59,728 bases of DNA from positions 1 through 59,728 of the forward strand of contig NZ_JHWJ01000021.1 in NCBI RefSeq assembly GCF_000687555.1, given 5' to 3'. Under the pieces are notes generated by a model. It saw only the letters and a list, made by a program, of their open reading frames with translations. It ran no database searches and was not told the DNA's origin. Numbering within the stretch: position 1 is the first letter of the stretch; the number at the start of each line of letters is the position of its first letter. Positions 28,032 to 56,878 of this stretch are shown in pieces. This DNA comes from [Clostridium] aerotolerans DSM 5434. Lineage in GTDB: Bacteria; Bacillota; Clostridia; Lachnospirales; Lachnospiraceae. Both the position numbers and the translations under genes were made by a program.

Positions 28032-31000
28032 GGCTCTTTCCAGGATCCTGTTAAACAACTGGCACTATATCAACCGGAAAACCTTATCCTTTCATAAAGA
28101 AATCAACTTCTTTACTGGTCATTCCGGCAGCGGAAAATCCACGGTCATCGATGCCATGCAGATTCTTCTTTATGCCAATACCGATGGCCGGGGCTTCTTT
28201 AATAAGGCAGCTGCCGATGATTCCGACCGAAATCTTATTGAATATCTGCGGGGCATGGTAAACATTGGGGAGAACAACGAATTTGCCTACTTAAGAAACC
28301 AGAATTTCTCAACTACCATAGTGCTGGAGCTGGAGCGAACCGACACCGAGGCCTTCCAATGCGTTGGTGTTGTTTTTGATGTGGAGACCTCCACCAATGA
28401 AATCTCCAGAAAATTCTTCTGGCACAAGGGGCCATTATGGGACAATGGATACCGGACGGCTGACCGGGCCATGACCATAGAGGAAATTACTGCAACCCTT
28501 CGTTCTAATTATACGAAGGAGGAGTATTTTGCAACGTCCCATAACGAGCGGTTTCGGAGACAGCTCTATGACGTATACTTAGGCGGCCTTGATTCAGAGA
28601 AATTCCCTCTGCTCTTTAAGCGGGCCATTCCATTTCGAATGAATATCAAGCTGGAGGATTTCGTAAAGGAATACATCTGCATGGACCAGGATATCCATAT
28701 TGAGGATATGCAGGAAAGCGTCATGCAGTATGGCCGTATGCGGAAGAAAATCGAGGATACGTCGGTTGAGATCGGCATTTTAAAGGAACTATCGGATCAA
28801 TACAACCGGGTCCAGGAGTTCAATGAACAGATCCATAAAAATATGTACTTTTTCCGAAAAGCGGAAATCAAGGACTACCAGACAAAAATCCAGGCTTTGG
28901 CGGATAAAACAGGACTTGCAAAGGAAGACCTTCTTCGTCAGGAAGAGCAAAAGACCAGTCTGGAAGGTCAGGTGAAGGATTTGACGCTGCAGGGAGAAGA
29001 GCTTCTTCGAAGAATCTCTTCCACCGGATATGAGGACTTAAAAAATCAGTGGAATGCGACTGAGGAACTGATCGGTCATTTAAACAAAAGTGCTGTCAAA
29101 TGGTCCCAGACCTCGGATAAGCTGAAGGAATGGGTGGAGGAAGATACCACCGCAAACCAGACCATTTGGGATATCGAAGCATTTGGCAAAAAGGAAGCAG
29201 ATGAGGAAACTCTCATCCGGTTAAAACGTTCCATTGCCGAGATGCAAAAAGAAACGGAAGAGACCAAAAAAGAAGCAGAAGGTACCTTACGTGATATCCG
29301 AAAAAAAGAGCGCCAGACAAGCGAAGAACTGACCCAGCTTAAGGCAGGCAATAAAGCCTACCCCAAATATTTAGAACGGGCCAGAGCCTATGTCCAGAAG
29401 CGTCTTTTAGAAGAGACGGGAAAGGCCGTTGAAGTGTGGGTTCTGGCAGACCTTCTGGATATCAAGGACGAGACCTGGAGAAATGCCGTTGAGGGCTACA
29501 TGGGCAATCACAAGCTGTCTCTGGTGGTAGCTCCAGCTTATGCCAAGGCGGCGCTTGGAATCTATGGAGAGCTTGACAAGAACGAATACTATAACGTGGC
29601 AGTTCTGGATACGGAGGAAGCGTCAAAGCATACCAGCGAGGTAATGGAAGGAGCGTTGTCCCAGGAGGTAGTGGTGCGTGAGTCCTACTTACAGCCTTAC
29701 ATCGATCTTCTCCTGGGCCGCGTTGTAAAATGCCTGACTGTGGAGGAGCTTCGCCGCTGCAAGGTAGGGGTGACTCCTGACTGCATGCTGTATCACACCT
29801 TCCGGCTCCAGCATATGAATCCGGACAATTACACGAAATTTGCCTATATCGGCAAGGACAGTGTCCGCAGAAGAATCCGTTTGCTGGAAAAGAGCCTCAT
29901 TTCCATGGAGGAAGAGAAAAAGCCTCAGGAAGAAGTCTTAAAAGAATGTCAGAGAATCCTTTCCATGGAAGCCTTATCAGAAGAAACAAGCGTTTATCTG
30001 GAATGGCAGCAGGATATGAACTCCTTAAAGGAAAAGGAAAAAGAAAAAAAGAAGCTGGAACAGAAGCTTGAGAAAATAAAGGCCCAAAATGTCAGCGAGT
30101 GGGAAAAGGAACGGGAAGCCATTTTAACACTGTGTGACGGAAAAAGGGCAGAGCAAAGAGCCTTAGACAAGCTGATCTTTGAATGCAGCGGTAAGATCGA
30201 AGGGTATCAAAAAGAGATTCTGGAGCTTCAGTCACAGCTGGTGGAGAGGACAAGCAGCCTGGAGCCAGAGGAAGAGCTGGAAGAGGAAAGCAGAGCGTAC
30301 TTTGATACGGAAGAAATCCCAAGGTACGACCGGTTGAAGGACCGATTCTATGCTCTGTCAAAAAAGGCGGAGGAAGCAAGAGATGATGCCTTTTCTATTC
30401 TGGTCTCTGCCAGAGGAGAGTATGGAAGGAAATATCCCAACAGAAACTGCTCCCTTACCTCAAAGGACAATGAAGAATACGACAGGCTCCTGGAGCTGAT
30501 GGAATGCGGAAACCTGGAAGAGTATCGGAAAATGGCAGCAGAGCAGGCAAAATCAGCTGTTCTTCATTTTAAAGACGATTTCATGTTCAAGATACGAAGC
30601 GCCATTCGGGATGCCATTCAGCGAAAGGAAGAACTGAACCGGATCATCAGCCGTCTTGATTTCGGAAAGGATAAATATCAGTTCGTCATAGGTAAAAACA
30701 AAGGACCTGACGGCCGTTATTACGACATGTTCATGGATGACTCCCTGGAGGTAAATCCCTCTCAGCTTACAGATTCTGTAGATGACCAGATGAACCTGTT
30801 CACCATGGAGCACGAAAATCAGTACGGCGAAATCATCAATGACTTAATCAACATCTTCATCCCACCAGACAATGCCACCCCGGAGCAGATGGAGGAAGCC
30901 AAGAGAAATATGGACCGGTATGCAGATTACCGCACCTATTTATCCTTTGACATGCAGCAGCTGGTGCAAAATGAAGATGAAGTCATTAAAATCCGCTTAA

Positions 31001-31380
31001 GTAAAATGCTTAAGAAAAACTCCGGCGGCGAGGGGCAGAACCCCCTTTACGTGGCACTTCTGGCAAGCTTTGCACAGGCCTACCGCATCAGCCAGTCCCC
31101 TAAGGTACAAAGAAATCCTACCATTCGCCTGGTGGTTCTTGATGAGGCATTCTCCAAGATGGACGCAGAAAAGGTAGCAAGCTGTATCGAGCTGATCCGT
31201 GGTCTTGGTTTTCAGGCAATCATCAGTGCCACCAACGACAAAATCCAGAATTACGTGGAAAATGTGGACAAAACCTTTGTCTTTGCCAATCCAAACAAGA
31301 AGTCTATCTCTATTCAGGAATTTGAACGGGAAAGCTTCCCGGAACTGATGCAGGAGCTTGATGAGGACGTGGAGAGCTAA
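28012..31380 (+). CDS. jetC: Wadjet-type JetC SMC-like ATPase
   Basis: JetC is the SMC-like ATPase that would form the ring of the complex. The 1122-aa protein has an N-terminal ATPase lobe with Walker A GHSGSGKST (residues 36-44), long coiled coils around 270-440 and 620-760, a hinge-like centre (ETWRNAVEGYMGNHKLSLVV), and a C-terminal lobe with signature KNSGGEGQNPLYVALLASF and Walker B LVVLDEAFSKMD (Asp near 1044). All ATPase motifs look intact. ATG 28012 is chosen over TTG 27991 because AAGGAGAGG lies 6 nt upstream. No jetD-like nuclease (toprim fold) follows; the next gene is an unrelated acetyltransferase on the other strand. Confidence 0.88.
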   Translation: MTNQKFEALSRILLNNWHYINRKTLSFHKEINFFTGHSGSGKSTVIDAMQILLYANTDGRGFFNKAAADDSDRNLIEYLRGMVNIGENNEFAYLRNQNFSTTIVLELERTDTEAFQCVGVVFDVETSTNEISRKFFWHKGPLWDNGYRTADRAMTIEEITATLRSNYTKEEYFATSHNERFRRQLYDVYLGGLDSEKFPLLFKRAIPFRMNIKLEDFVKEYICMDQDIHIEDMQESVMQYGRMRKKIEDTSVEIGILKELSDQYNRVQEFNEQIHKNMYFFRKAEIKDYQTKIQALADKTGLAKEDLLRQEEQKTSLEGQVKDLTLQGEELLRRISSTGYEDLKNQWNATEELIGHLNKSAVKWSQTSDKLKEWVEEDTTANQTIWDIEAFGKKEADEETLIRLKRSIAEMQKETEETKKEAEGTLRDIRKKERQTSEELTQLKAGNKAYPKYLERARAYVQKRLLEETGKAVEVWVLADLLDIKDETWRNAVEGYMGNHKLSLVVAPAYAKAALGIYGELDKNEYYNVAVLDTEEASKHTSEVMEGALSQEVVVRESYLQPYIDLLLGRVVKCLTVEELRRCKVGVTPDCMLYHTFRLQHMNPDNYTKFAYIGKDSVRRRIRLLEKSLISMEEEKKPQEEVLKECQRILSMEALSEETSVYLEWQQDMNSLKEKEKEKKKLEQKLEKIKAQNVSEWEKEREAILTLCDGKRAEQRALDKLIFECSGKIEGYQKEILELQSQLVERTSSLEPEEELEEESRAYFDTEEIPRYDRLKDRFYALSKKAEEARDDAFSILVSARGEYGRKYPNRNCSLTSKDNEEYDRLLELMECGNLEEYRKMAAEQAKSAVLHFKDDFMFKIRSAIRDAIQRKEELNRIISRLDFGKDKYQFVIGKNKGPDGRYYDMFMDDSLEVNPSQLTDSVDDQMNLFTMEHENQYGEIINDLINIFIPPDNATPEQMEEAKRNMDRYADYRTYLSFDMQQLVQNEDEVIKIRLSKMLKKNSGGEGQNPLYVALLASFAQAYRISQSPKVQRNPTIRLVVLDEAFSKMDAEKVASCIELIRGLGFQAIISATNDKIQNYVENVDKTFVFANPNKKSISIQEFERESFPELMQELDEDVES

Positions 31381-35938: not shown

Positions 35939-35985
35939 GTAACCCAAAGCGCTATTTGTCAAAGATGAAATTAGGAGGAATACCC

Positions 35986-37527
35986 GTGAAAAGAGAAATG
36001 ATTATCGTTCTGGATTTCGGCGGACAGTACAACCAGCTGATTGCCAGAAGAGTCAGAGAATGCAATGTTTACTGTGAGGTTCATCCCCACACGCTGTCAC
36101 TGGACAAGATTAAGGAAATAAATCCCAAAGGAATTATTTTTACAGGTGGTCCAAACAGTGCATATAAGGAAGAGTCACCTCGCTGTGAAAAGGAGCTCTT
36201 TGAATTGGGAATCCCGATTCTGGGAATCTGCTATGGTTCTCAGTTAATGGCACATATGCTGGGCGGCAAGGTAAACACAGCTCCTGTCAGTGAATACGGC
36301 AAGACTGAGGTTGACGTAGAAGCAGACAGCAAAATCTTAGAAAATGTAAGCTCCAAGACCATCTGCTGGATGAGTCATACCGATTATATAGAAAAAGCAC
36401 CAGAAGGCTTTAAAATCACCGCTCACACTCCCGTCTGCCCAGTTGCAGGCATGGAATGCGAAGAGCGTGGCCTCTATGCCGTACAATTCCACCCTGAGGT
36501 TATGCACACCCAGGAAGGTACCACAATGCTTTCAAACTTTGTTTACAACGTCTGCAAATGTTCCGGTGACTGGAAGATGGATTCTTTCGTAGAAACCTCT
36601 ATTCAGGCAATCCGTGAAAAGGTAGGAGACGGAAAAGTGCTTTGCGCATTATCCGGCGGCGTAGACTCTTCTGTAGCTGCTGTTATGCTTTCAAAAGCAG
36701 TAGGAAAGCAGCTTACCTGCGTATTCGTAGATCACGGCTTACTCCGTAAGAACGAAGGCGATGAGGTAGAAGCCGTATTTGGACCAGATGGACACTATGA
36801 CTTAAACTTTATCCGTGTCAACGCTCAGGATCGTTTCTACGACAAGTTAAAGGGCATAGAAGACCCAGAGAGAAAGCGTAAGATCATCGGAGAAGAATTC
36901 ATTCGTGTATTTGAAGATGAAGCAAAGAAGATCGGCGCTGTAGATTTCTTTGTACAGGGAACCATTTATCCTGACGTTATTGAATCAGGACTTGGAAAAT
37001 CTGCTGTGATTAAATCCCACCACAACGTAGGCGGTCTGCCAGAGCATGTGGATTTTAAAGAGATCATTGAACCGTTAAGACTTCTTTTTAAGGATGAGGT
37101 TAGAAGAGCAGGTCTGGAACTTGATATTCCGGAATACCTGGTATACCGCCAGCCATTCCCAGGCCCAGGGCTCGGCGTTCGTATTATTGGCGAAGTAACT
37201 CCTGAAAAGGTGAAGATTGTTCAGGAAGCGGATGCGATTTATAGAGAAGAGATTGCAAAAGCTGGAGTTGATAAAGGATTAGGACAGTACTTTGCAGCTC
37301 TTACTAACATGCGTTCTGTTGGATGTATGGGAGACGAGAGAACTTACGATTATGCGATAGCACTTCGTGCGGTATTAACTTCTGACTTTATGACAGCGGA
37401 ATCTGCAGAACTTCCTTGGGAAGTTCTTGGAACAGTGACCAGAAGAATTGTAAATGAAGTGAAAGGCGTGAACCGGGTGCTGTATGATTGCACTGGGAAG
37501 CCGCCGGCTACTATTGAGTTTGAATAA
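35986..37527 (+). CDS. guaA: GMP synthase (glutamine hydrolysing)
   Basis: GuaA converts XMP to GMP using glutamine and ATP. The 513-aa protein has an N-terminal class I amidotransferase domain (nucleophile Cys in LGICYGSQ, His-Pro-Glu in [10 protein letters not shown]) and the ATP pyrophosphatase P-loop [13 protein letters not shown], followed by the dimerisation domain ending in [12 protein letters not shown] 35986 is chosen because AGGAGG lies 8 nt upstream; the in-frame TTG at 35956 has none. The last 12 bases, including the stop, are the left attachment site of a genomic island, and insertion has kept the C-terminus intact. Confidence 0.97.
37516..37527 (+). other. attL: left 12-bp direct repeat at the guaA 3' end
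   Basis: GAGTTTGAATAA, encoding the final Glu-Phe-Glu-stop of guaA, is repeated exactly at 56879-56890. The 3' end of guaA is a known target for tyrosine-recombinase islands. Confidence 0.8.
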
Positions 37528-39359: not shown

Positions 39360-39434
39360 AGAGACAGGGGACGATAAGTTCCTTGTCTTTAAGACTATTT
39401 CCTATTAAATCATATGTAAGAAGTCGAAATTTGG

Positions 39435-39463
39435 TTGCTAATATGACAATTTAGAGATACAAT
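39435..39463 (+). promoter_or_regulatory. Candidate promoter of the island's HTH gene
   Basis: TTGCTA (39435-39440), a 17-bp spacer and TACAAT (39458-39463), 50 bp before the start of the excisionase-like gene. It may start the transcript that includes the R-M genes. Confidence 0.5.
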
Positions 39464-39512
39464 AATTGTAGTTGTGTAAAAACTGAAAGTTAGACAATTT
39501 GGAGGAAAATGT

Positions 39513-39698
39513 ATGTCTGAAACAATGGAAAAATGGTCGAGTTTAGAAGAAACAGCAGAGTATCTGGGAGTAACAAAAGATACCATACGAAACTGGATTA
39601 AAAAGGCAGATATACCAGCACATAAAGTGGGTAGATTATGGAAGTTTAAATTATCTGAAGTAGATGCCTGGGTAAAAAGTGGTAAGGGTGCGCTGTAG
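39513..39698 (+). CDS. Excisionase-family helix-turn-helix DNA-binding protein
   Basis: A 61-aa protein of the HTH_17 / excisionase type: WSSLEETAEYLGVTKDTIRNW followed by the wing segment IPAHKVGRLWKFKLSEVDAWV. It has GGAGG 7 nt before the ATG. Proteins of this kind are either recombination directionality factors or small regulators, and they often stand in front of type I R-M operons. With no integrase nearby, a role in regulating the hsd genes is the more likely choice here. Intact by length and motif. Confidence 0.85.
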   Translation: MSETMEKWSSLEETAEYLGVTKDTIRNWIKKADIPAHKVGRLWKFKLSEVDAWVKSGKGAL

Positions 39699-39769
39699 TG
39701 TTGGATTTTGATAGAAGACTACGATAATAATTTGAGTAAGAATCACATAAAAAAGGAACAGGTCTAAAA

Positions 39770-40815: not shown

Positions 40816-43251
40816 GTGGCTATCAAAAAAAGTGAGATTTACAGCCAGATATGGGCTGCATGTGATAAATTGCGTGGTGGAGTTGAACCAGCGAGATATA
40901 AAGACTATATATTGACCTTATTATTTGTAAAGTATGTATCAGACAGATTCAAAGGAGATCCTTATGCAGATATAGTAATTTCTGAAAGTGGTTCTTTTGA
41001 TAAAATCGTAGAACTAAAAGGAAAACCAAATATCGGTGAGGGAATAAACATTGTAATCAGTGCGCTTGCTGAAGCGAATGAACTTAAGGGCGTTATTGAT
41101 GTTGCTGATTTCAATAGTGATGATTTGGGAACAGATAAAGAAGCCGTTGATAAACTAACGGGTTTAGTGGCAATATTTGAAAAGCCAGAGTTGAATTTTG
41201 AAAAAAATAAAGCAGGTGGTGATGATATTCTTGGCGATGCTTACGAATATCTTATGAAAAAATTTGCGGTTGATTCAGGTAAGAGCAAGGGACAGTTCTA
41301 CACACCTGGAGAAGTTTCCAAAATTATGGCTAAGGTAGTTGGAATTGATAAAGCTGAAGGAACAGATAAAACCGTTTATGATCCAGCATGTGGATCAGGT
41401 TCTTTGTTGATTCGTGCAGCAGACGAAGCCCCTGTAAGAGAGGATGGAACTTCGGTTGTGGCAATATACGGACAGGAGAAAGATAAAGCAACAGCAGGTT
41501 TAGCAAGAATGAATCTTGTACTTCATAACAAAGCCAATGGAGTAATTTCTGGTAATAAAAGCACAATTTCATCACCGGAATATAAAGATGATAGAAATTC
41601 TACATTGCTAAAGCGCTTCGATTATATTGTAGTAAATCCACCGTTTTCAGATAAATCTTGGATGGATGGAATTCAAACACCAGATTTATATGGCAGATTT
41701 GATGGTTTTGAAACACCACCAGAAAAGAATGGAGATTATGCATGGTTTTTGCATGTTCTTAAATCTTTAAAGTCAGATGGTAAAGCAGCAATCATACTTC
41801 CTCATGGAGTACTATTCAGAGGAAATACAGAAGCCAATATTAGAAAAAAAATTATTGATAGAGGATACATTAAAGGTATTATCGGGTTGCCAGCGAACTT
41901 ATTTTATGGAACTGGAATTCCAGCGTGTATTATTATTGTAGATAAAGAAGATGCAGAAATAAGAGAAGGAATCTTTATGATTGATGCATCGAAAGGCTAT
42001 ATAAAGGATGGAAATAAAAACAGACTTCGTGAGCAGGACATTCATAGAATTGTAACAGTATTTAATCATCAGATGGAAATTGAAAAGTACTCCAGATTTG
42101 TGCCAAATAGAGAAATAAAAAAAGATAATGAATATAATCTTAACATCCCAAGGTACATTGATAATAGTGAGCCAGAAGATTTACAGGATATCAATGCACA
42201 TTTGAATGGAGGAATTCCATGCGTTGATATTGATAGCCTTAATGCGTATTGGACTGTTTATCCTTCTATAAAAGGCACTTTGTTTGCAACATTAAGAGAA
42301 GGTTATTATAAAGCTATAGTAGCTAAAGAAAATATTGTTTCCACGATATTGAATCATGAAGAATTTATAGCCCATGCTGAAAAAGTGGATGAGGCTTATT
42401 CAGTGTGGAAAGAAAAAGTTATCCCTATTTTAAGTTCATTAACAGTTGAAGATAATCCGAAGAGTATCATTAAGATCATTGCAGAATCATTGCTTGAACA
42501 GTTTAAAGAAGTGGACTTAATCGATGAGTATGATATTTATCAGGTTCTTATGGAATATTGGGAAGAAATCATGCAGGATGATGTATACGCGATTTGTTAC
42601 GATGGATATGAGACTGGAAAAGAAATTGCATATGAGTATGTAATGAAAAAAGATGTAAAGACAAATAGAATTAAAAGTTTTGAAGGAAAATTAATACCGA
42701 AAAAGATAGTTATTGAAACTTATTTTTTAGAACAAGCAAGGGCTATCCAAAAACTGAATGAAGATTTAGATGAAGTGGTTTCTAAAATGGAAGAAATGGT
42801 AGAAGAAAATACAGGTGAAGATGGATTGTTCTCAGAACTCGATGACATGAAAAAAGGCACCATAACTGCCAGAATGAAAGTGATAAAAGGTGATCCTGAG
42901 GCAAAGGACGAGTTAGATGTATTAAATCAATATAGCAAATGGATTGATGCAGAATTAAACTTTAAAAAAGCAATAAAGCAGGCAGAGGAAGATTTGGATA
43001 AATTAGTAAGAGAACAATATGGTAAATTGACAATTAATGAAATAAAGAATCTTTTAGTCGAGAAAAAATGGCTTATATCTATATATGACGGTATTAATTC
43101 AATTCATCAGGCAGTATCTCATAGACTATCTAATAGATTGGTAGAACTTGTTGTAAGATATGAGTGTACCATGAGCCGATGTGGTGATGAAGTAAAAGAA
43201 TATGAGATGAAAGTGAAAGCTCATCTGGAGAGGATGGGGTTTTCATGGTAG
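40816..43251 (+). CDS. hsdM: Type I restriction-modification DNA methyltransferase HsdM
   Basis: HsdM transfers methyl from S-adenosylmethionine to N6 of adenine at the site set by HsdS. The 811-aa protein starts at GTG 40816, 7 nt after CCGGAGGA. It has an HsdM N-terminal helical domain (residues about 5-140), SAM motif I DPACGSGSLLI (189-199), and the N6-adenine catalytic motif NPPF (274-277). The C-terminal extension of roughly 370 residues, rich in charged helices, makes it much longer than the classical 520-aa enzymes but fits a known long subgroup. It overlaps hsdS by 7 nt. All key motifs are intact. Confidence 0.95.
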   Translation: MAIKKSEIYSQIWAACDKLRGGVEPARYKDYILTLLFVKYVSDRFKGDPYADIVISESGSFDKIVELKGKPNIGEGINIVISALAEANELKGVIDVADFNSDDLGTDKEAVDKLTGLVAIFEKPELNFEKNKAGGDDILGDAYEYLMKKFAVDSGKSKGQFYTPGEVSKIMAKVVGIDKAEGTDKTVYDPACGSGSLLIRAADEAPVREDGTSVVAIYGQEKDKATAGLARMNLVLHNKANGVISGNKSTISSPEYKDDRNSTLLKRFDYIVVNPPFSDKSWMDGIQTPDLYGRFDGFETPPEKNGDYAWFLHVLKSLKSDGKAAIILPHGVLFRGNTEANIRKKIIDRGYIKGIIGLPANLFYGTGIPACIIIVDKEDAEIREGIFMIDASKGYIKDGNKNRLREQDIHRIVTVFNHQMEIEKYSRFVPNREIKKDNEYNLNIPRYIDNSEPEDLQDINAHLNGGIPCVDIDSLNAYWTVYPSIKGTLFATLREGYYKAIVAKENIVSTILNHEEFIAHAEKVDEAYSVWKEKVIPILSSLTVEDNPKSIIKIIAESLLEQFKEVDLIDEYDIYQVLMEYWEEIMQDDVYAICYDGYETGKEIAYEYVMKKDVKTNRIKSFEGKLIPKKIVIETYFLEQARAIQKLNEDLDEVVSKMEEMVEENTGEDGLFSELDDMKKGTITARMKVIKGDPEAKDELDVLNQYSKWIDAELNFKKAIKQAEEDLDKLVREQYGKLTINEIKNLLVEKKWLISIYDGINSIHQAVSHRLSNRLVELVVRYECTMSRCGDEVKEYEMKVKAHLERMGFSW

Positions 43252-44501
43252 ATGAATTATACAAAACAACAGATTTGGGAAGAGTGCCCTATAATTGGAA
43301 AGTAAAAAACATAATGGATGTTGTTGAATCTATTAAAATTGGTCCTTTTGGAAGTCAGTTAAAAAAAGAATATCTAATAAAAAATGGAAAATATCGAGTG
43401 TATGGTCAGGAAAATGTGTATAAAAAAGATTTTACTTTTGGTGAACGTTATCTTACAAAAGAACATTTTCAGAGGTTAAGAAGTTGTGAGCTGATAAGAG
43501 AAGATTTTGTTATTAGTAGTATGGGAACTATAGGAAAATGTCATGTTATTACTGAAAATATCATGACAGGAATTATGGATTCTCATTTAATTAGATTACG
43601 ATTAAATACAACATTAATTGACAGTAAGTATTTATTGTATTTATTTGGAAATGAAACGGGTATTATAATTAATCAAATTTCAAAATTAAGTGTAGGAGGA
43701 ATAATGGATGGTCTCAGTACGAAGATTATTAAGTCATTAAATGTTGTTTTACCTCCTATTGCAGAACAACACGAAATAGCAGAAGTTTTGTCAGATGTTG
43801 ATAAGCTCATTCAAGCTCTTGAAAGGTTAATTGAAAAGAAAAAAGCAATAAAGCAAGGAACAATGCAAGAATTGTTGACAGGAAAGAAAAGAATTGATGG
43901 ATTCTCAAAGAAGTGGGATAGGGGTATTTTGGGAGATTTGTGCGATATTTACAGAGGTGGTTCACCTAGGCCAATTCAGAAATATCTTACAAATAATTCA
44001 AATGGTGTTAATTGGATAAAAATTGGGGATGTTTCAAGAAATGCAAAATATATAGAATCTACAGATGAGAAAATAATACAAGAAGGAATACGTTATTCTA
44101 GAGTTGTTCATAGTGGTGATTTTCTTTTGTCTAATTCAATGAGTTTTGGTAGACCATATATTTTAAAGCTAGATGGGTGTATACACGATGGATGGCTTGT
44201 TATACAAGATTATAAGAAAAATTTTAATACAGAGTATTTATATTATATGTTAATGTCTCCATTTGTATTAGATCAATATTTAAGTAAAGCAGCGGGAAGT
44301 AGTGTTTTAAATTTAAATAAAGAATTAGTTTCAACGGTAGAGGTTTTGATACCAGAGTTAAAAGAGCAAGAAGCAATAGCTGGTAAATTAGCAACATTTG
44401 ATGATGAAATAAATTCACTAGAACTAAAACTGGAAAAATATCGTCAAATCAAACAGGGAATGATGCAAGAACTATTAACCGGAAGAATTCGTTTAATATA
44501 G
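43245..44501 (+). CDS. hsdS: Type I restriction-modification specificity subunit HsdS
   Basis: HsdS recognises the bipartite DNA target and assembles HsdM and HsdR. The 418-aa protein has two target recognition domains, each followed by a conserved helix: IEKKKAIKQGTMQELLTGKKR (near residue 200) and LEKYRQIKQGMMQELLTGRIR (near residue 405). The near repetition about 200 residues apart is the normal HsdS architecture and also a site for domain exchange. Its start overlaps the end of hsdM. The target sequence cannot be predicted here. Confidence 0.93.
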   Translation: MVDELYKTTDLGRVPYNWKVKNIMDVVESIKIGPFGSQLKKEYLIKNGKYRVYGQENVYKKDFTFGERYLTKEHFQRLRSCELIREDFVISSMGTIGKCHVITENIMTGIMDSHLIRLRLNTTLIDSKYLLYLFGNETGIIINQISKLSVGGIMDGLSTKIIKSLNVVLPPIAEQHEIAEVLSDVDKLIQALERLIEKKKAIKQGTMQELLTGKKRIDGFSKKWDRGILGDLCDIYRGGSPRPIQKYLTNNSNGVNWIKIGDVSRNAKYIESTDEKIIQEGIRYSRVVHSGDFLLSNSMSFGRPYILKLDGCIHDGWLVIQDYKKNFNTEYLYYMLMSPFVLDQYLSKAAGSSVLNLNKELVSTVEVLIPELKEQEAIAGKLATFDDEINSLELKLEKYRQIKQGMMQELLTGRIRLI

Positions 44502-44516
44502 GAGGTGTATAGAAAT

Positions 44517-45524
44517 ATGAAAAAATCAAATGCAGAAATATTACTCTATAGCCTAGATAATAGTAATGTGTATGCTATTGTTTTTTCAAAGATGCAACAT
44601 TCTGGTTAACCCAGAAATCCATGGCAGAACTTTTGATTGTTCTACGGATAATGTTTCATTACATTTGAAAAACATTTATGAAGAGGAAGAATTAGATAGA
44701 GATTTAACTACCGAGATATTCTCGGTAGTTCGAAAAGAAGGCAATAGAAAAGTAAACAGAGAATTAGAATTCTATAGCTTAGATGTTATTATTGCAGTTG
44801 CTACCGTGTGAACTCAAAAAATGCGACACATTTTCGTCAATGGTCAACCAAGACTTTGAAAGAATATATTCAAAAAGGTTTTGTTTTAAATGACGAAATG
44901 CTCAAAAATGGGAAGCCGTTTGGCAAAGATTATTTTGATGAATTATTAGACAAAATCAGAGAGATTCGTGCAAGCGAGAGACGAGCTTACCAGAAAATCG
45001 CAGATATATTTGAACAGTGCAGCTATGACTATGATAAGAACAGTAATTTGACCAAAGAATTTTATGCCTTTGTCCAAAACAAACTTCATTATACACTAAC
45101 AGGAAAAACAGCAGCGGAACTCATTAGTGAAAGAGCAGATGCATAACATCCTACTATGGGATTGACGACATGGAAAGATGCATCGGATGGAAAAATTTTA
45201 AAGCGTGATGTAATTGTAGCTAACAACTATCTCAATGAAAAAGAAATTAAAAAAATAAATCGTCTGGTGACTATGTTTATCGACTATGCAGAACTAATGG
45301 CAGAAGATGAAGAGTTAATGAGTATGCAGGATTGGCTCAATGAAACAGATAACTTTTTGAAAAATAACCGAAGAAATGTATAAGAAGGGAAGGGCACAAT
45401 TTCACATAAAGATGCATTGCAAAAAGTAGGTGATGAATATCAGATTTTTCGAGTAAGGCAAGATAGAGAATATATATTGGAATTTGACAAAGACATGGAA
45501 AAGTACTTAAAGGGTAAGAACTAG
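44517..45524 (+). pseudogene. RhuM-family gene, multiply broken, between hsdS and hsdR
   Basis: After AGGAGG at 44500-44506 an ATG at 44517 opens a frame that is lost after about 20 codons. Pieces in different frames rebuild a RhuM (virulence protein family): FWLTQKSMAELF, FDCSTDNVSLHLKNIYEE, VNSKNATHFRQWSTKTLKEY, ASERRAYQKIADIFEQC, MGLTTWKDASDGKILK and a tail HKDALQKVGDEYQIFRV. Lesions are frameshifts near 44585, 44634 (one T lost) and 44800 (one G lost), plus in-frame TAA at 45144 and 45381. RhuM genes often sit inside type I R-M operons; this copy is dead while hsdM, hsdS and hsdR around it are intact. Confidence 0.8.
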
Positions 45525-45537
45525 AAGGGAGTTACTT

Positions 45538-48500
45538 ATGAGTGTTGGGGAAGTGGAAAAAAAGACACAAGAGAGAATCATAAACTTATTCGTAAATGAA
45601 TTAGAATATACCTATCTGGGAGACTTTACAGATAAGAAGAACTCTAATATAGAGCTGAAATACCTTATAAAGTTTCTACAAAGACAAGGTTATTCTGATG
45701 TCCTGATTAAGCGTGGAATAAAGGCGCTTCAGGATAAAACGACAAACCAGCAATTATCACTGTATGATCTTAATAAAGAAACTTATGCTATTTTACGATA
45801 TGGGTCGAAAGTAAAAGAAGGTGCTGGAGAACAGACCAGAACTGTAAATTTTGTAGATTGGGAACATCCTTTGAATAACGATTTTTACATAGCGGAAGAA
45901 GTATCTATTTCAATTTCCAATAACAGTACGACGAAAAGACCAGACCTTGTTTTATATATTAATGGAATAGCTTTTGGTGTAATCGAGTTAAAACGTAGTA
46001 CAGTATCAATGGCAGAAGGCATCAGACAGAATTTAACCAATCAAAAAAAGGAAATGATTCGTCATTTCTTTGCTACTATTGGTTTGGTGATGGCTGGAAA
46101 TAATGCACAAGGTTTAAAATATGGTGTAATCAATACTTCCGAGAAATATTATCTTACATGGAAAGAAGATAAAGAAGCAACTGATGAGATTTCAAAAGTG
46201 GTTAAAAAGACCATTGATAAATACCCAATTCGTTTAGATAAAAATTTAATCTCGCTTTGTAAGAAAGAGAGATTAATTGAGATATTATATAATTTCATGA
46301 TCTTTGATAGTGGAACGAAAAAGACATGTAGACCGAACCAATATTTTGGAAATTTAGCCGCTCGTAGTTTTGTGAGAAAACATGCTGGAGGGGTTATTTG
46401 GCATACTCAGGGTTCTGGTAAATCACTTACTATGGTTTGGCTTAGTAAATGGATAAAAGAGAATATTTCCAATAGTAGAATTTTGATTGTAACGGATCGT
46501 GATGAATTGGATGAGCAGATTGAAGGCGTATTTACGGGTGTAGATGAAAAAATAGTACGTACCACTTCTGGGAAAGACCTGGTAAGTAAAATTAACGATA
46601 CTTCACCAGTGCTAATGTGCTCTTTAGTTCACAAGTTTGGTCGACGAGGCGGAAGTGCAACAGAAGCAGATTATACAAGCTTTATGGAGGAGCTGATGGC
46701 ATCTTTACCACCGAATTTCTCACCGAAAGGAGATTTTTATGTATTTGTAGACGAATGTCATAGAACCCAGTCGGGGAAATTACATAAAGCGATGAAAACG
46801 ATTTTGCCTAATGCATTGTTAATCGGTTTTACTGGAACTCCGCTTATGAAGAAGGACAAGCAAAAAAGCATTGAAGTTTTTGGACCTTATATACATCGAT
46901 ATAAATTTGATGAAGCGGTAAAAGATGGAGTTGTTTTGGACTTAAGGTATGAAGCCAGAGAGGTTGAACAAAATGTTATCTCACAGGAGCGTATAGATGC
47001 ATGGTTTGATTCAAAAACAGCTGGCTTAAGTGAAACAGCAAAGGCGCAGTTAAAGCTGCGCTGGGGATCATTGCAGAAAATGTTTAGTTCAAAATCAAGG
47101 CTGAGTGTTATTGTATCTGATATCATGTTTGATATGGAAATGAAGCCGAGATTAAAGTCAGGCAGAGGAAATGCTATGCTGGTAGCAGGTAGTATTTATC
47201 AGGCATGTAAATACTATGAATTGTTTCAATCTGCAGGGTTAAAAAAATGTGCGGTTGTAACTTCATATGAACCTAACATCGGAGATATCCGAACTGAAAC
47301 AGTTGGAGAAGATGGTGAAACAGAAGCAGTGCAACAATATGAAATCTATCGCAAAATGTTAGATGGAAAAGATCCGGCAACTTTTGAAAAGGAAGTAAAA
47401 AAGAAATTCATCGAGGAACCAGATGAGATGAAACTTCTTATCGTGGTAGATAAATTATTGACCGGATTTGATGCACCACCAGCAACCTATCTTTACATAG
47501 ATAAATCAATGAGAGATCATGGATTGTTTCAGGCGATTTGTCGTGTTAATCGATTAGATGGTACGGACAAGGATTTTGGATACATCATTGATTACAAAGA
47601 TTTATTCCGTTCTTTAGAAAAGACGGTGGCAGATTATACGGCTGAAGCGTTCGCTGAATATGATGCAGAAGATATCTCTGGATTGTTAACAGATCGTTTT
47701 GATAAGGCAAAAGACCAATTAGAAGATGTTTTGGAAAGTTTATATGCTTTGTGTGAACCAGTTGAACCACCTAAGAATGATGTAGACTATATTCATTATT
47801 TTTGCGGAAAGAATACAGAGCAATTTGATGTTGAAGAGTTAGAAGCAAATATGCCAAAGAGAGAACAGCTATATGATCTGTCGGCATCAGCTCTTCGTTC
47901 ATTTGCCGAAGTTTCTGGGGAGTTGCAAGAAAGATATCATTACTCGTTGTCTCAGATAAAGAAACTGGAATCTGAAGTTAGTAATTTTATAAAAATCAGA
48001 GATGTAGTACGTGCAGCAAGTGGCGATTATATTGACTTAAAAGCATACGATCCAGATATGCGCCACTTAATCGATAATTATTTGTCAGCAAATCCAAGTA
48101 AAATTTTGACTTCATTTAATGATATGTCTATCGTTCAGTTGTTGGTCGATAGAGGTGTAGATGCACTATCGGGAATGCCATCTGAGAAAAAAGAACAACA
48201 GGAAGCAGTGGCAGAGACTATTGAAAACAATGTACAGAAGGAAATTGTTGAAAAGTCCCATAGCAATCCGAAATACTATGAGAAAATGTCAGCTTTGCTT
48301 AAAGAACTGGTTGAGAAAAGAAAACAAGATGTTCTAAATTATCAGCAGTATTTGCAGGAAATTATCGAGTTGGCTAAGAAAGTACAAAAACTAGAGACAA
48401 ATATGTTTTATCCGGAAACCATACGTACTAGCCCCGCTTGCAGGGCATTATATGATAACTTGGATTCTGATCAATCACTGACTATGCAGGTGCATGAGGC

Positions 48501-48669
48501 TGTTATGGAATATAGAACCGATGGATTTCGTGGAAACGTTGTAAAGGAACGACAGATAAAAAGACAACTAGCAAGAGTTCTTAGTGTATTCTGCAAGATA
48601 AATGAAAGAAATGAAAGTGAAATTGTTGAAAAAGTGTTTTCAATAGTCAAAGAACAGGATGAATATTAA
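45538..48669 (+). CDS. hsdR: Type I restriction endonuclease subunit HsdR
   Basis: HsdR translocates DNA with its motor domain and cuts unmodified DNA. The 1043-aa protein has an N-terminal PD-(D/E)xK nuclease (Asp in RPDLVLYING, IELK near residue 155), helicase motif I TQGSGKSLTMVW near residue 290, DECH box near residue 405, motif III GFTGTPLM, and the helicase C-terminal part with DKLLTGFDAPP and QAICRVNR. A helical C-terminus probably binds HsdMS. GAAGGGAG precedes the ATG. The stop shares one base with the next gene's start. All catalytic motifs are intact, so restriction should be active if hsdMS are expressed. Confidence 0.95.
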   Translation: MSVGEVEKKTQERIINLFVNELEYTYLGDFTDKKNSNIELKYLIKFLQRQGYSDVLIKRGIKALQDKTTNQQLSLYDLNKETYAILRYGSKVKEGAGEQTRTVNFVDWEHPLNNDFYIAEEVSISISNNSTTKRPDLVLYINGIAFGVIELKRSTVSMAEGIRQNLTNQKKEMIRHFFATIGLVMAGNNAQGLKYGVINTSEKYYLTWKEDKEATDEISKVVKKTIDKYPIRLDKNLISLCKKERLIEILYNFMIFDSGTKKTCRPNQYFGNLAARSFVRKHAGGVIWHTQGSGKSLTMVWLSKWIKENISNSRILIVTDRDELDEQIEGVFTGVDEKIVRTTSGKDLVSKINDTSPVLMCSLVHKFGRRGGSATEADYTSFMEELMASLPPNFSPKGDFYVFVDECHRTQSGKLHKAMKTILPNALLIGFTGTPLMKKDKQKSIEVFGPYIHRYKFDEAVKDGVVLDLRYEAREVEQNVISQERIDAWFDSKTAGLSETAKAQLKLRWGSLQKMFSSKSRLSVIVSDIMFDMEMKPRLKSGRGNAMLVAGSIYQACKYYELFQSAGLKKCAVVTSYEPNIGDIRTETVGEDGETEAVQQYEIYRKMLDGKDPATFEKEVKKKFIEEPDEMKLLIVVDKLLTGFDAPPATYLYIDKSMRDHGLFQAICRVNRLDGTDKDFGYIIDYKDLFRSLEKTVADYTAEAFAEYDAEDISGLLTDRFDKAKDQLEDVLESLYALCEPVEPPKNDVDYIHYFCGKNTEQFDVEELEANMPKREQLYDLSASALRSFAEVSGELQERYHYSLSQIKKLESEVSNFIKIRDVVRAASGDYIDLKAYDPDMRHLIDNYLSANPSKILTSFNDMSIVQLLVDRGVDALSGMPSEKKEQQEAVAETIENNVQKEIVEKSHSNPKYYEKMSALLKELVEKRKQDVLNYQQYLQEIIELAKKVQKLETNMFYPETIRTSPACRALYDNLDSDQSLTMQVHEAVMEYRTDGFRGNVVKERQIKRQLARVLSVFCKINERNESEIVEKVFSIVKEQDEY

Positions 48670-49376
48670 TGGAAGATCAAATTGTAATTAGTAATATTGA
48701 AATGTTGGTCGAAAGAAAAGATATTAAAAATATGTATATCCGCATCCTGCCACCAGATGGAAAAGTGAAAATTACCGTTCCAGAAGCTATTTCGGATGAT
48801 GCAATTCGAATGTTTGCTATTTCAAGAATAGCTTGGATTAAAAAGCAAAAAGCAAATTTTCAAAATCAATCCAGACAAACGAAACGCCAGTATATATCAG
48901 GAGAAAGTCATTTTCTATGGGGAAAACGATACCGTTTAGAGGTTGTATATTCTGGTGTGCGCAATGATGTGTTTATAAAAGGAGACAAACTGTTCCTTCA
49001 AGTTAGAAAAGAAAGTACGCAGGAACAACGCGAAACTGCAATGGAAGAGTGGTATCGAGAGCAGATAAAGCAAGCGATTCCAGCAGTCCTTGAAAAGTAT
49101 GCAAAAATAGTTGGGAAAGCGCCAGATGATTGGCGTGTAAAGAATATGCGAACAAAATGGGGAACGTGTAATCCTATAAAAAGAAGAATCTGGTTGAACC
49201 TACAGCTTGCAAAAAAAACACCGGAATGTTTAGATTATGTAATCGTTCATGAGCTGGTTCATCTTTATGTTAAAAATCATGATGACGAGTTCAGATCGTA
49301 TATGGATCAGTTTTATCCGAATTGGCAAGTAGTGAAGAAGCAGCTGAATGAGCAGATGTTGGATTGGATGGAGTAG
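48669..49376 (+). CDS. YgjP/SprT-like M48-type metallopeptidase (DUF45)
   Basis: A 235-aa protein of the YgjP-like metallopeptidase family often found behind hsdR. The zinc motif is HELVH (residues 194-198) followed by VKNHDDEFRSYMDQFYPNW, and the upstream WGTCNPIKRRIWLNLQLA segment is typical of the family. It begins one base inside the hsdR stop and its end lies 11 nt before the RT gene start, so it is translated from the same message. The substrate is unknown. In this position it may process or clear components of the R-M complex, but that is only a suggestion. Confidence 0.88.
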   Translation: MEDQIVISNIEMLVERKDIKNMYIRILPPDGKVKITVPEAISDDAIRMFAISRIAWIKKQKANFQNQSRQTKRQYISGESHFLWGKRYRLEVVYSGVRNDVFIKGDKLFLQVRKESTQEQRETAMEEWYREQIKQAIPAVLEKYAKIVGKAPDDWRVKNMRTKWGTCNPIKRRIWLNLQLAKKTPECLDYVIVHELVHLYVKNHDDEFRSYMDQFYPNWQVVKKQLNEQMLDWME

Positions 49377-49387
49377 AGGAAGCACAG

Positions 49388-52348
49388 ATGTTTGATAGCT
49401 TGGATAATGTACGTTATATGGTAGAGGGTTCTTACAAAAAGCTTAAATCATATTATTATTATGATAAGACATTGTTGTATATAAAAATGAAAATAGTAGA
49501 ATTTGAAGCAGATGAGAAATTTAAAGACAAACTGGAAATCTTATCAAAGAACTTATTCGAGGACAACCTGGAGTATTTTGAAGAATTGAAAAGGCAGGTA
49601 AAATTTTGTGTTTTGCCAAAAACGTTTAAGAGTATAAATAACGATATAAGGCTAATACGAGGAAATGTAGATAAGAATAAAAAAATTTCCAAAGTGAATT
49701 TTACAATAGAGTTACCTGTGGAATTATTAATTTTAGACTTAATGTGGACTCTGTTTGTAAAAAAAATATATACAGAACATCATGGAGATTTCGTTTATTC
49801 TCATGCAGGTCAATTTAAAAAAGGAGTTTTTAATAAGGAAGAGGAATTGATTGCGGGAATAGATTTTAAATCTAATCGTTGTTTTGAACCTTATTTTCAA
49901 TGCTATACAAAGTGGAGAAATACAGCATTAGATTCAGCATTAGAAACATGCAAAAATGAAAATACGGTTATGATTAGTTTAGATTTGAAGAGCTTTTATT
50001 ATAATATTAATTTTGATTTTGGAGATTTAGCAAAAGTATTTGATAATGATGCAAGATATACAGAAATAGAATTTCTTACATCAATGATAAGTGACATATA
50101 TACTAAATATACAGAATTAGTTGCCAAGTACAAAAAAGGAATAACAAAATCAGTGGAGAAAACGGTATTCCCTATTGGTTTAATAAGCCCATTAATATTG
50201 AGGGATATAGCACTTGAGGGGGTTGACAATAGTATAAAAAAAGGTCTTTCGCCTAAGTATTATGGAAGATATGTTGACGATATGCTTATAGTTGTTGGAA
50301 CTGGTCCAATAGAACACATATCAACAGAAGAAATTATTGAAGACATCCTAGTCAAGAAGCGAATATTAAATGCCAAGAATACAAAAGGGGAATATGAATT
50401 TTTTGAAGAACCATCAGTCAAATTGCAAGGCGAAAAGGTCAATTGTTTTTATTTTGAAAAAGGTAAAGAAAATATTCTCCTTGATGTGTATTGTAAAAAA
50501 ATTAAAAAAAATTCAAGTGAGGCAAATCTGTTACCAGACATAGATGTTTTAAGTGATTCATTTAATAGTAGAGCCTACACTATGAATTCTAGTGATGATT
50601 CCATGAAAATAAGAAATCTTGAATTTATGGAAAGTGATAATTATAATGCAACATTATTCATAAATGGTTTAAAGGGAATTTTAAAAAATGCATCTTATGA
50701 TAAAAAGTATATTGAAAATTATTTGACAGATATTGTTAATTTTTATTCGGGAAGCCAGGCAATTGAATTTTCAAATACATGGAGAACAATATTCGAGTTA
50801 TTAATTTTATGTAAAGATAAGGATAGGGCAAACACATTTTATCTTAATGTCAAAAAAGAGATAGAAAATATTTCGTTTGATTATATTGAAGAGGATGAAA
50901 TTCTTTCAAAAAAGAAACTGACAATATTAAATAATTTGAAACGTTCTTTAGTGCTTAAGCTTGATATTTCGATTGGGTTGGCTGTTGCATTGGATTACGA
51001 CAGGGGAAAGCAGAAAAAGCATAAAATATTAGGACAAAAGATAAGACAGACAAATATGCTAAGTCATAATATGGTCTCTTTTCCATTAATAAATTATTCA
51101 ATGGATGATAGTATTGATGAAATTTCGTTAATAAATTTGGATTTAAATAAAATTTTATCAAATGTTACTCTTAGAAAAAAGATATTTAAGTTAGATGAAG
51201 AAAAAATACGTTGGTCTCCGAGATTTATTCATTTGCATGAATTGTATTTTTGTTTTTTTTACTTTTACATAGGAAGTGAAGAAAAGCTTTTGAATGAAAA
51301 AAAGAAAACGATATTTAAAAGCTATGTTAGAATTAACTGTTTAAGTGATAAAATCCCCAATCCTATAATTTGTGATGAGGAGAAAAGTTTTTCAGAACTT
51401 AATATAGAAAGAAAAGATGTTGTTATAACTGATAATTGTGAAAAGAAAAATACTAAAGTGGGTTTGGTGAATACAAAAATTAATGAAGATGAAGTTCTTG
51501 AAATATTATTGAATCCGGCAAAGGGTACAACTGTTAAAAAAAAGCAGAGTCTATACAAAATTTTAAATGCTGCAAAGGAAGAAAAGGTGAAATACTTGGT
51601 TTTTCCTGAATTTTACATGCCGGCATTGTGGCTTAGTGATATCGGTAATTTTACAAAACAATTTGGAATTACAGTTGTCACAGGACTTCAATATATTACT
51701 TGTAATGAAAGAGTTTTTAATTTTGTTTGTGTGATTGCAAGTACATGTGGAAAGACATATTTTAAAAATATGATTCCATTGATTAGAGAAAAAAACTATT
51801 ATGCACCAGAAGAAAGAATGGAATTAGCTGCATTAGGATATGTAAGTAAAAATCCTTCTAAGGCGTCTTATTACATGGTGAATAATGGTAAAGAAACATT
51901 TAGTACAATTCTATGTTTTGAATTTACAGATATTGCCTCGAGATTAATAATGAAGGGTGAACTGGATTTCTTGTGTGTACCACAATTAAATAGGGATACA
52001 AATTACTTTTCAAGTATAGTTGAATCAGCTGCGAGAGATTTGCATACTATAGTCGTTCAAGCAAATACTTCAAAATATGGAGACTCAAGAGTGACGGGTC
52101 CGTATAAAACGGATTTTAAAGATATTTTAAAGATAAAGGGTGGAGAAAACGATATTCTTATTGTTGGAGAGTTAGAGGTAAAATCATTACAAAAGTTCAA
52201 AAATAGTTATTATAGTGATTTTGAAAAACAAGTGAGAAAATGTTTGGCTTGTACAAAGGTTCGAACAGTATCGCATTTATCACAAAAATGCACCAAATGT
52301 TTGAATAAAAAAGGAAAAATTAAAGGGCTACCGCCAAACTGGAAGTAA
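49388..52348 (+). CDS. Reverse transcriptase-nitrilase fusion, defence-associated RT (DRT type 1 / UG1-like)
   Basis: This 986-aa protein joins a reverse transcriptase to a C-N hydrolase. RT motif A is SLDLKSFYYNI (Asp 199), motif B FPIGLISPL, and motif C YVDD (295-298), so the polymerase centre is intact. A helical middle region follows. The C-terminal nitrilase domain has its Glu-Lys-Cys triad at E741 (FPEFYMP), K793 (YFKNMIP) and C843 (TILCFEF). The tail adds two CxxC pairs (C952/C955 and C968/C971) like a small zinc ribbon. The architecture matches the RT-nitrilase class described as DRT type 1, which protects against phages; the mechanism is not settled to my knowledge. ATG 49388 has AGAGGA 7 nt upstream. 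Base composition is very A+T-rich. Confidence 0.9.
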   Translation: MFDSLDNVRYMVEGSYKKLKSYYYYDKTLLYIKMKIVEFEADEKFKDKLEILSKNLFEDNLEYFEELKRQVKFCVLPKTFKSINNDIRLIRGNVDKNKKISKVNFTIELPVELLILDLMWTLFVKKIYTEHHGDFVYSHAGQFKKGVFNKEEELIAGIDFKSNRCFEPYFQCYTKWRNTALDSALETCKNENTVMISLDLKSFYYNINFDFGDLAKVFDNDARYTEIEFLTSMISDIYTKYTELVAKYKKGITKSVEKTVFPIGLISPLILRDIALEGVDNSIKKGLSPKYYGRYVDDMLIVVGTGPIEHISTEEIIEDILVKKRILNAKNTKGEYEFFEEPSVKLQGEKVNCFYFEKGKENILLDVYCKKIKKNSSEANLLPDIDVLSDSFNSRAYTMNSSDDSMKIRNLEFMESDNYNATLFINGLKGILKNASYDKKYIENYLTDIVNFYSGSQAIEFSNTWRTIFELLILCKDKDRANTFYLNVKKEIENISFDYIEEDEILSKKKLTILNNLKRSLVLKLDISIGLAVALDYDRGKQKKHKILGQKIRQTNMLSHNMVSFPLINYSMDDSIDEISLINLDLNKILSNVTLRKKIFKLDEEKIRWSPRFIHLHELYFCFFYFYIGSEEKLLNEKKKTIFKSYVRINCLSDKIPNPIICDEEKSFSELNIERKDVVITDNCEKKNTKVGLVNTKINEDEVLEILLNPAKGTTVKKKQSLYKILNAAKEEKVKYLVFPEFYMPALWLSDIGNFTKQFGITVVTGLQYITCNERVFNFVCVIASTCGKTYFKNMIPLIREKNYYAPEERMELAALGYVSKNPSKASYYMVNNGKETFSTILCFEFTDIASRLIMKGELDFLCVPQLNRDTNYFSSIVESAARDLHTIVVQANTSKYGDSRVTGPYKTDFKDILKIKGGENDILIVGELEVKSLQKFKNSYYSDFEKQVRKCLACTKVRTVSHLSQKCTKCLNKKGKIKGLPPNWK

Positions 52349-52606: not shown

Positions 52607-53296
52607 ATGGAAACGGCAGTAAAAAAATGGGAGAAACCGCATAAGAAAACATTAGTACATGAATATACAAGAGATATGTATCTTGAAAGTCAAAATTATA
52701 CATTAGATAAACATTTTCCAGTAGAAGAAATTATTGAGATGCAGATGCTTCTTGAAAACTATAGCATAGATTATTCAAGTGTAGGATATACGGATGTAAG
52801 CGAATTGGAATTTGATGATTGTAGTGATGAATTGGAGGAATATGCAGAAAAATTACAGAATTTCTTTATAGAAAATACTTTGGATACAGTTGTAGATGAT
52901 GTGTTTTCTATATTGTATATGGATAAAAATTTTTTGCACGAATTCAATAGACAATGTTCAGATAAAATACAAGACATGGAAAAAGCAGATTATCCAAACT
53001 TACTTAAAGAAGATGGAGTGATTGAGAGGATAAGTTATTATCCTACATGGTTTAAATATGGAATTGAATATAGGGATAAGCTTAGATGTTCACTATGTGG
53101 ATGTGATTTATCGAGCTCGTTTACCACAATCGTAGATGAAAATTTTGATCATATCATTCCATTACAAGCAGGTGGTAACAATGATCCATCTAATTGGCAG
53201 TTGACTTGTGAAAGTTGTAATAAATCGAAAGGTGCAAGAAGCAGCGCTTACAAAAATATTATTTTTCCATTTTGGGAAATGGATGTAGAAATCTAA
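52607..53296 (+). CDS. HNH endonuclease
   Basis: A 229-aa protein with a C-terminal HNH/zinc nuclease core: CSLCGCD (C161, C164), FDHIIPLQAGGNNDPSNWQLTC with the catalytic His at 182 and the Asn in NWQL, and CESCNKSKG (C201, C204). The N-terminal 150 residues are helical and acidic without a family I know. It lies about 260 bp behind the RT-nitrilase gene and directly before two unknown genes. Translation is uncertain: the ATG lacks a ribosome binding site and an amber codon splits it from an upstream in-frame ATG. It may act in defence; no pairing partner is proven. Confidence 0.75.
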   Translation: METAVKKWEKPHKKTLVHEYTRDMYLESQNYTLDKHFPVEEIIEMQMLLENYSIDYSSVGYTDVSELEFDDCSDELEEYAEKLQNFFIENTLDTVVDDVFSILYMDKNFLHEFNRQCSDKIQDMEKADYPNLLKEDGVIERISYYPTWFKYGIEYRDKLRCSLCGCDLSSSFTTIVDENFDHIIPLQAGGNNDPSNWQLTCESCNKSKGARSSAYKNIIFPFWEMDVEI

Positions 53297-56353: not shown

Positions 56354-56878
56354 TAGAAGACAATGGTGGAAATCGCTATTATACTGATAATATGATGGAA
56401 TGTTTTAATACAGAAGAATTATTTTTAAACTTTTCATTTGCCTGATTATTTTGTTACAGGTAACTACTTGATAGTTTATCAGTAGATGAGAAGGGATAGA
56501 CGGAATAGAAGAAATAGAAGGAGTCTGCATTATAGTGTTTGCTTTTCTGGTTTTTAATAACCTTTGGATTGAAATGCAATAAATTAATTTTCTACTCAGA
56601 ATGAGTTAGAACTGGCACATATTTTCGGTTGCATTTTAGCGGAATCAATTTTATAATTATAGCAATGGAACTGCAAACCACTTTCACATCATTTTATGAT
56701 TAGAAAAGACTGGATTGCAAACCATTGGATACCATGAGAATGACGCGGAAATGTCTTGCTACTGGATTGGTACTAAAAAGTGTTTAAACGATATGGAATG
56801 GGTAAGAAAACTGAAATATACTATACAAATATGTATAGAAATAGAATGAGATATACGAAAAAGTACAAAGAACTTTGC
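56354..56878. other. Degenerate right end of the island
   Basis: Only short, stop-ridden frames are seen, some Tyr/Asn-rich. A tyrosine recombinase gene would be expected at one end of such an island, but I find no RHRY-type catalytic motifs here. The last codons before attR read RYTKKYKELCEFE-stop, ending in the same Glu-Phe-Glu-stop as guaA. Confidence 0.4.

Follow-up and report, generated by a model that had tools for sequence, protein, structure and literature searches.

A predicted UG5-nitrilase reverse transcriptase at the end of a type I restriction-modification operon in [Clostridium] aerotolerans: a probable defence cargo, separable from its restriction genes

A reverse transcriptase (RT) gene standing last in a type I restriction-modification (R-M) operon raises the question of whether the two work together or are merely carried together. 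Such a gene is present in the window, i.e. the whole analysed stretch of 59,728 nucleotides from [Clostridium] aerotolerans DSM 5434 (contig NZ_JHWJ01000021.1), where a 986-aa RT–nitrilase is encoded on the + strand at 49388..52348. A first-pass annotation had proposed a layered or even cooperating defence unit. The reading favoured here, with a probability of roughly 0.7, is a self-contained class 3 defence RT of the UG5-nitrilase kind that is the terminal cargo of the R-M operon, would use a DRT1-like mechanism and would form a separate backup layer.

The annotated RT–nitrilase is genuine: it is intact and evolves under purifying selection, as judged from its intact frame, PADLOC, an AlphaFold2 model with a mean pLDDT of 87.0 and the dN/dS values given below. 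The best PADLOC family was RT_UG5-nitrilase (PDLC03780), with 675.7 bits over residues 12-945, nearly the whole chain, and on this profile match the protein is classed as a UG5-nitrilase class 3 RT. The Drt1a (DRT1/UG1) model reached 70.5 bits, and membership in DRT1/UG1 was ruled out by these scores. The protein had been called DRT type 1-like, with UG1/UG5-type RTs expected as its closest relatives; it does belong to that circle, namely to UG5, and the closest relatives are UG5-nitrilase RTs, but it is not DRT1/UG1 itself, DRT1 being its best solved relative. RVT_1 spans residues 187-323 (Pfam), and the RT catalytic core, placed by Pfam and by conservation in 63 aligned rows, comprises residues 193-302 (49964..50293, + strand), with D199 and the YVDD motif at 295-298. 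The nitrilase domain comprises residues 684-945 (51437..52222, + strand). Structure comparison by VIA-align confirmed the nitrilase fold, mainly over residues 684-986, and barely covered the RT and middle parts. The DRT1 structure, PDB 9yfd, was absent among the fold-search matches listed (entries up to 2026-04-08) and was found instead by sequence, a profile of 19 relatives matching it at 4.7e-28 in the RT part and the nitrilase part alike.

Conservation was read from a 63-row alignment, from which L070, L076, L136, L155 and P0124 are absent and in which two rows (L003 = P0006) are identical. In the RT centre D199, R294, D297 and D298 were each invariant (63/63), and the same was true of E741, K802, E809 and C843 in the nitrilase. 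The annotated single protein with an intact RT centre and an intact nitrilase was thereby borne out, including E741 and C843 as members of the nitrilase triad. The catalytic lysine had been assigned to the wrong residue, K793: a lysine is found at position 793 in 20/63 sequences and at position 802 in 63/63, which rules out the former in favour of K802. In the profile alignment K802 and E809 pair with a lysine and a glutamate of DRT1; E1017, K1077, E1084 and C1116 of DRT1 correspond to E741, K802, E809 and C843, the first three numbers being manual counts and C1116 coming from the available part of PMC13275509.

According to the same part of that paper, DRT1 carries out protein-primed, untemplated DNA synthesis with priming at S402, forms filaments and has a lid containing K1219 and A1223 (PMC13275509). 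A candidate for the priming residue was found in the window RT. Among 36 positions invariant in the 63 sequences S377 (codon 50516..50518, + strand) is the sole Ser or Thr, and it lies within a segment of pLDDT<50 (residues 372-381) in the AlphaFold2 model. The profile alignment stops at N397 of DRT1, five residues short of S402, and when it is extended S377 falls about two residues before S402. From its invariance, its low-confidence loop and its place near that of S402, S377 is a good guess as the predicted priming site for DNA synthesis. Its conservation could have another reason, since, as far as the available part of PMC13275509 goes, other class 3 DRTs do not conserve S402, and DRT1 can do without the neighbouring S403.

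The C-terminal end carries two further motifs. A four-cysteine motif, CxxC-12-CxxC, at residues 952-971 (52241..52300, + strand) was found in 48/63 rows: every row of the window's clade has it, and the 15 rows outside that clade lack it; by its look it is a probable zinc ribbon. The lid motif K979-G-L-P982-P-N-W (52322..52342, + strand) shows K979 in 62/63 rows, P982 in 61/63 and P, A or I at position 983 in 63/63. It contains the equivalents of K1219 and A1223, the DRT1 counterpart being KTQPAGF at 1219-1225.

Upstream of the RT, all on the + strand, profile searches identified hsdM (40816..43251, 811 aa; TIGR00497 263.8 bits, N6_Mtase 331.2 bits), hsdS (43245..44501, 418 aa, with two specificity-domain stretches, PF01420) and hsdR (45538..48669, 1043 aa; TIGR00348 503.9 bits, PADLOC REase_I 1344.2 bits), followed by a gene for a YgjP-like metallopeptidase (ygjP, 48669..49376; PF01863 212.9 bits). 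The three hsd genes are intact by these searches, which makes the type I set complete, with its activity a prediction. The order is hsdM-hsdS-(broken rhuM)-hsdR-ygjP-RT, and the placement of the RT within a type I R-M operon, behind hsdR and ygjP with gaps of -1 and 11 nt, agreed with the first-pass annotation at both junctions. Transcription of the RT and the R-M genes as one message is plausible from this arrangement, and no terminator-like + strand site was found between hsdS and the RT. The rhuM-like gene (44566..45521) is broken into two partial RhuM frames that overlap and end at 45146, and DNA similarity to the Anaeromicropila populeti locus (L002) over it extends to 45572. In A. populeti it is a single 383-aa frame and the R-M genes were lost instead, so the cassette genes met opposite fates in the two loci, rhuM decay in one and R-M loss in the other.

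Two loci with fetched DNA encode RTs more than 80% identical to that of the window, L002 of A. populeti and L003 of [Clostridium] fimetarium; three further clusters above this identity, P0004, P0005 and P0007, lack genomic context. All three source genomes are Lachnospiraceae. L002 follows the window colinearly through four blocks (8439-8529/39381-39472, 8530-8728/41018-41216, 8722-9838/44463-45572 and 9826-12957/49213-52344), and deletions between them have taken most of hsdM, hsdS bar its end, almost the whole of hsdR and 3/4 of ygjP. Its RT is complete, with 986 aa, open and constrained. In L003 the recognisable ygjP consists of the last 30 codons only, again directly before the RT. Upstream stand hsdM, hsdS, an HsdR with an EcoEI_R_C domain and an Abi_2 gene; since this other type I system, with a different HsdR type from that of the window, lies about 1 kb upstream of the RT, L003 represents an exchange of the R-M genes and not their absence. 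Similarity to the window stops at the RT stop codon in both loci. Because a ygjP stump immediately precedes the RT in both, the linkage of RT and R-M genes goes back to the ancestor of this small clade, although it can be broken.

The RT dN/dS was 0.143 and 0.132 against the two relatives, the three pairwise values being 0.143, 0.132 and 0.135, and the nitrilase part had the lowest values, 0.062-0.085. On the L002 branch alone the RT value was about 0.15, with no relaxation seen. Decay of the RT upon R-M loss was thus not seen in this one undated case; the deletion may be too recent for decay to show.

These scars are natural experiments that show the RT and the R-M genes to be separable. A rival proposal is that R-M and RT cooperate, with restriction products or restriction failure triggering the RT–nitrilase in the manner of a PrrC-like guard. 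PrrC is an anticodon nuclease encoded within type Ic hsd loci and is kept silent by the R-M complex. It resembles the RT–nitrilase as a cell-suicide effector within an hsd operon, but is an unrelated protein, and the RT–nitrilase persists without the R-M complex. The tight gene order with its -1 and +11 nt junctions, and the ancestral linkage in 3/3 loci above 80% identity with DNA, are what cooperation would lead one to expect. However, the A. populeti RT is intact though most of hsdM, hsdS, hsdR and ygjP is gone, and the C. fimetarium RT stands behind a module of a different HsdR type (L003/L148). Cooperation is therefore considered unlikely, the likelihoods given to the favoured reading and to its alternatives not being exclusive of one another; of the annotated layered or cooperating unit, the layered part remains a fair description.

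The wider placement of these RTs was examined in 18 genomes, which are all those with a UG5-nitrilase-like RT at the cut-offs used and in each of which the surroundings were inspected. The RTs of 8/18 loci (window, L068, L069, L125, L127, L133, L134 and L135) were scanned with PADLOC, and the other 10/18 were assigned by the A1 profile, alignment or identity. A DNA-targeting multi-gene system was found immediately upstream of or around the RT in 8/18 genomes and none there in 10/18, a raw count that may reflect no more than ordinary clustering in defence islands. The systems are of five kinds, type I, type II, BREX, Wadjet and DISARM/Druantia-like. Type I R-M genes stand at the RT in 4/18 genomes on two tree branches, comprising the window, the relics in A. 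populeti (G054 = L002) and C. fimetarium (G300 = L003), and G1043 (L115), in which HsdR is 28 bp upstream of the RT. The others have a C5-methylase and a FokI-type nuclease (G1212), PglZ and BrxL (G294), JetC/JetD beside a broken RT (G447), or DrmD-, type IIG/DrmMI- and DruE-like genes (G1483). With a KwaB-like gene in G1078 and a candidate PDC-S39 in G1169, any known or candidate defence gene stands at the RT in 10/18 genomes. No defence gene was recognised immediately upstream in G306, G344, G668 and G1242 by a profile scan of the upstream gene, nor upstream in G1183, G1247, G1504 (split RT) and G1541 from frames and strands by eye; in G344 a C5-methylase lies about 6 kb from the RT. The tree used for the branches has 60 rows, 59 of them different, and leaves out L070, L076 and L136 (split frames), L133-L135 and L155. 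The G1483 locus (L135, 241-19424) carries its RT–nitrilase in a run with DrmD-like, type IIG/DrmMI-like, UvrD-like and DruE-like genes; this mixture may represent a hybrid defence system that is as yet undescribed.

Since G1043 belongs to a deep branch separate from the window, hsdR-RT neighbours arose at least twice, and this second pair, like the 8/18 count, speaks for cooperation; the variety of partners, with five kinds and 10/18 genomes lacking such a system immediately upstream, speaks against it. The order hsdR-YgjP-RT as a recurrent unit, for which a genome survey had been proposed as a check, did not hold up: ygjP or its stump precedes the RT in 3/18 genomes, all of one origin, and type I R-M in any form in 4/18. 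The hsdR-ygjP pair itself is ordinary, being present in 6/6 opened hsdR loci without an RT (three non-window hsdR matches among 150 family genomes and the best 3 of 471 plasmid records). The plasmids, from Mycolicibacterium, Euhalothece and Aeromonas, have the hsdM-hsdS-hsdR-ygjP order of the window but no RT in the opened stretch; behind ygjP are SIR2 and DUF87 genes, hypothetical genes or an opposite-strand recombinase. The UG5-nitrilase RT thus looks like a recurrent defence cargo and not a dedicated R-M partner.

The operon lies in a variable island, the left border of which is guaA (35956..37527, + strand; GMP synthase, named by eye), and the distance from guaA to the RT is 11.9 kb in the window and 11.5 kb in C. 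fimetarium. Behind guaA, 310 bp (39400-39709) match L148 2824-3132 at 82.6% identity, and this block common with the C. fimetarium island includes a 61-aa ORF (39513..39698, + strand) with a helix-turn-helix look by eye. The content between guaA and the gene at 57343 differs among three same-genus genomes: in G968 and G321 the two genes enclose other content, and in G1029 the 57343 gene is inverted. The type I operon of L073 likewise lies near guaA; the A. populeti assembly has guaA and the RT on separate contigs. Because the content after guaA differs in the same-genus genomes and in C. fimetarium, the R-M module seems to have been exchanged at a variable guaA-linked site. An 83-bp block (56643-56725) is 90% identical to L003 18427-18509, where a frame that by eye resembles an incomplete integrase lies close by, and could mark the right end of the island.

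A variable site also allows the R-M and RT genes to be chance neighbours in a defence island, sharing a hotspot and neither a message nor a function. Defence genes generally cluster, the guaA-to-57343 interval varies as described, and the RTs of L066, L134 and L155 sit among genes without a defence look. Against chance stand the common strand with the 11-nt gap, the ygjP tail at the RT start in all three close loci and the lack of a terminator-like + strand site noted above. This explanation is possible but on balance doubtful.

Under the preferred reading of a self-contained cargo, and by homology to DRT1, the RT would start DNA synthesis without a template on a residue of its own, for which S377, in the flexible loop that follows the RT core, is the prediction. 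The covalently attached DNA would drive oligomers of the nitrilase core and keep them quiescent, with the K979-P982 motif as a lid over the nitrilase site of the neighbouring subunit. A phage cue would open the lid, and the nitrilase (E741/K802/E809/C843) would attack an essential metabolite of the amide or nitrile type and so halt cell and phage alike. Restriction-modification would act first and separately, with the RT as backup. We infer the abortive outcome, the trigger and the substrate from DRT1 as described in the available part of PMC13275509, and the DNA priming, oligomers, lid, shared transcript and order of action are similarly conjectural. An RNA-templated RT dependent on a non-coding RNA, as in class 2 DRTs, would fit the fully intact RT active site seen here. 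It is nevertheless highly improbable, as no Rfam match was obtained in the window at gathering scores, similarity between L003 and the window begins 94 bp before the RT with no non-coding segment shared in L002 or L003 outside the ygjP tail, and class 3 relatives synthesise DNA without a template (PMC13275509, available part).

Both the protein and its kind of neighbourhood have precedents, because UG5-nitrilase fusions are known and AbiA and AbiK have been noted beside R-M genes. The window RT is like the UG5-nitrilase RTs of PDLC03780 in its single-chain RT and nitrilase, catalytic residues, size and near full-length profile match; its clade adds the four-cysteine motif before the C-terminal lid, and it stands behind hsdR-ygjP. 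With DRT1/UG1 (9yfd) it shares the order of RT, middle part and nitrilase, a K-x-x-P lid motif and a flexible loop after the RT core that holds a key serine, predicted to be S377 in the window RT, but the sequence is distant (70 bits), the length is 986 compared with 1229 aa and the serine is offset by about two residues. In the available part of PMC8934634 an AbiA RT gene shares its operon with an R-M system, and an AbiK is seemingly part of such a system. These RTs resemble that of the window in standing beside R-M genes; they belong to other RT classes, and a nitrilase is not mentioned for either in that part.

Class 3 is described as the least characterised group of UG/Abi RTs in the available part of PMC13275509, which explains DRT1 but names no residue on which priming starts in the other class 3 proteins examined there. 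Among these are DRT5S and DRT5L, for which, as for DRT1, the synthesised DNA is described as covalently attached to protein; they are perhaps UG5 proteins, a term absent from the main text of that paper as available. For the UG5 branch, an invariant serine in a flexible loop puts the matter within reach of a single mutant. That these RTs turn up repeatedly next to R-M, BREX, Wadjet and DISARM/Druantia-like genes suggests a layered design. A bolder and quite improbable extension is that UG5-nitrilase RTs are general fail-safe guards repeatedly recruited, at the end or in the interior, to type I/II R-M, BREX, Wadjet and DISARM/Druantia-like operons, which would sense failure or debris of the attack on DNA through S377-linked DNA and kill by the nitrilase, a metal-bound ribbon by the lid giving the window's clade a second control. 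Added here are the scars of separability, the recurrent placement by DNA-targeting operons of unrelated kinds, the correction of the catalytic lysine, the cysteine motif specific to the clade and the prediction of S377. In the open-licence literature, outside which most subscription papers fall, no paper on UG5 RTs in R-M operons was found by title or start of abstract, and for YgjP with hsdR title and abstract gave nothing but a genome announcement.

The A1 set contained 46 sequences, the query and 45 hand-picked from the best 120 of 536 matches. Genomes with an RT match made up 6/397, 3/398, 3/295, 2/59, 8/327 and 6/346 of random draws, which overlap and mostly include the window's own genome (cut-off E 1e-30 for the 6/397 draw, otherwise 1e-60). 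P0008-P0123, at 38-65% identity, are sequences without genomic context between the window's clade and the distant relatives. Spread of close relatives by plasmid or phage was rejected, with five plasmid records, none reaching 60% identity or covering more than 58% of the query, and no RT relative among phage records. At least four long but distant relatives came from IMG/VR (L013, L014, L077 and, in two frames, L076; best segment at most 31%), and other loci there match RT portions only.

Elsewhere in the window, JetA, JetB and JetC genes lie in one run at 26023-31380 (Wadjet type I models); the listed frames next to them showed no recognisable JetD, the profile scan covering JetA-C and a small frame at 31504. 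A 229-aa HNH protein is encoded at 52607-53296, and its HNH part bears a weak similarity to IscB and Cas9d models, with scores far below cut-offs; this gene is placed outside the RT cassette because similarity to L002 and L003 stops before it. Among the plasmid sequences, a 1069-aa hypothetical protein with RT and nitrilase parts is encoded on the E. coli plasmid CP088862.1 (L150, 103-3312), and it retains the invariant serine and a C-terminal FKPLPEGF motif.
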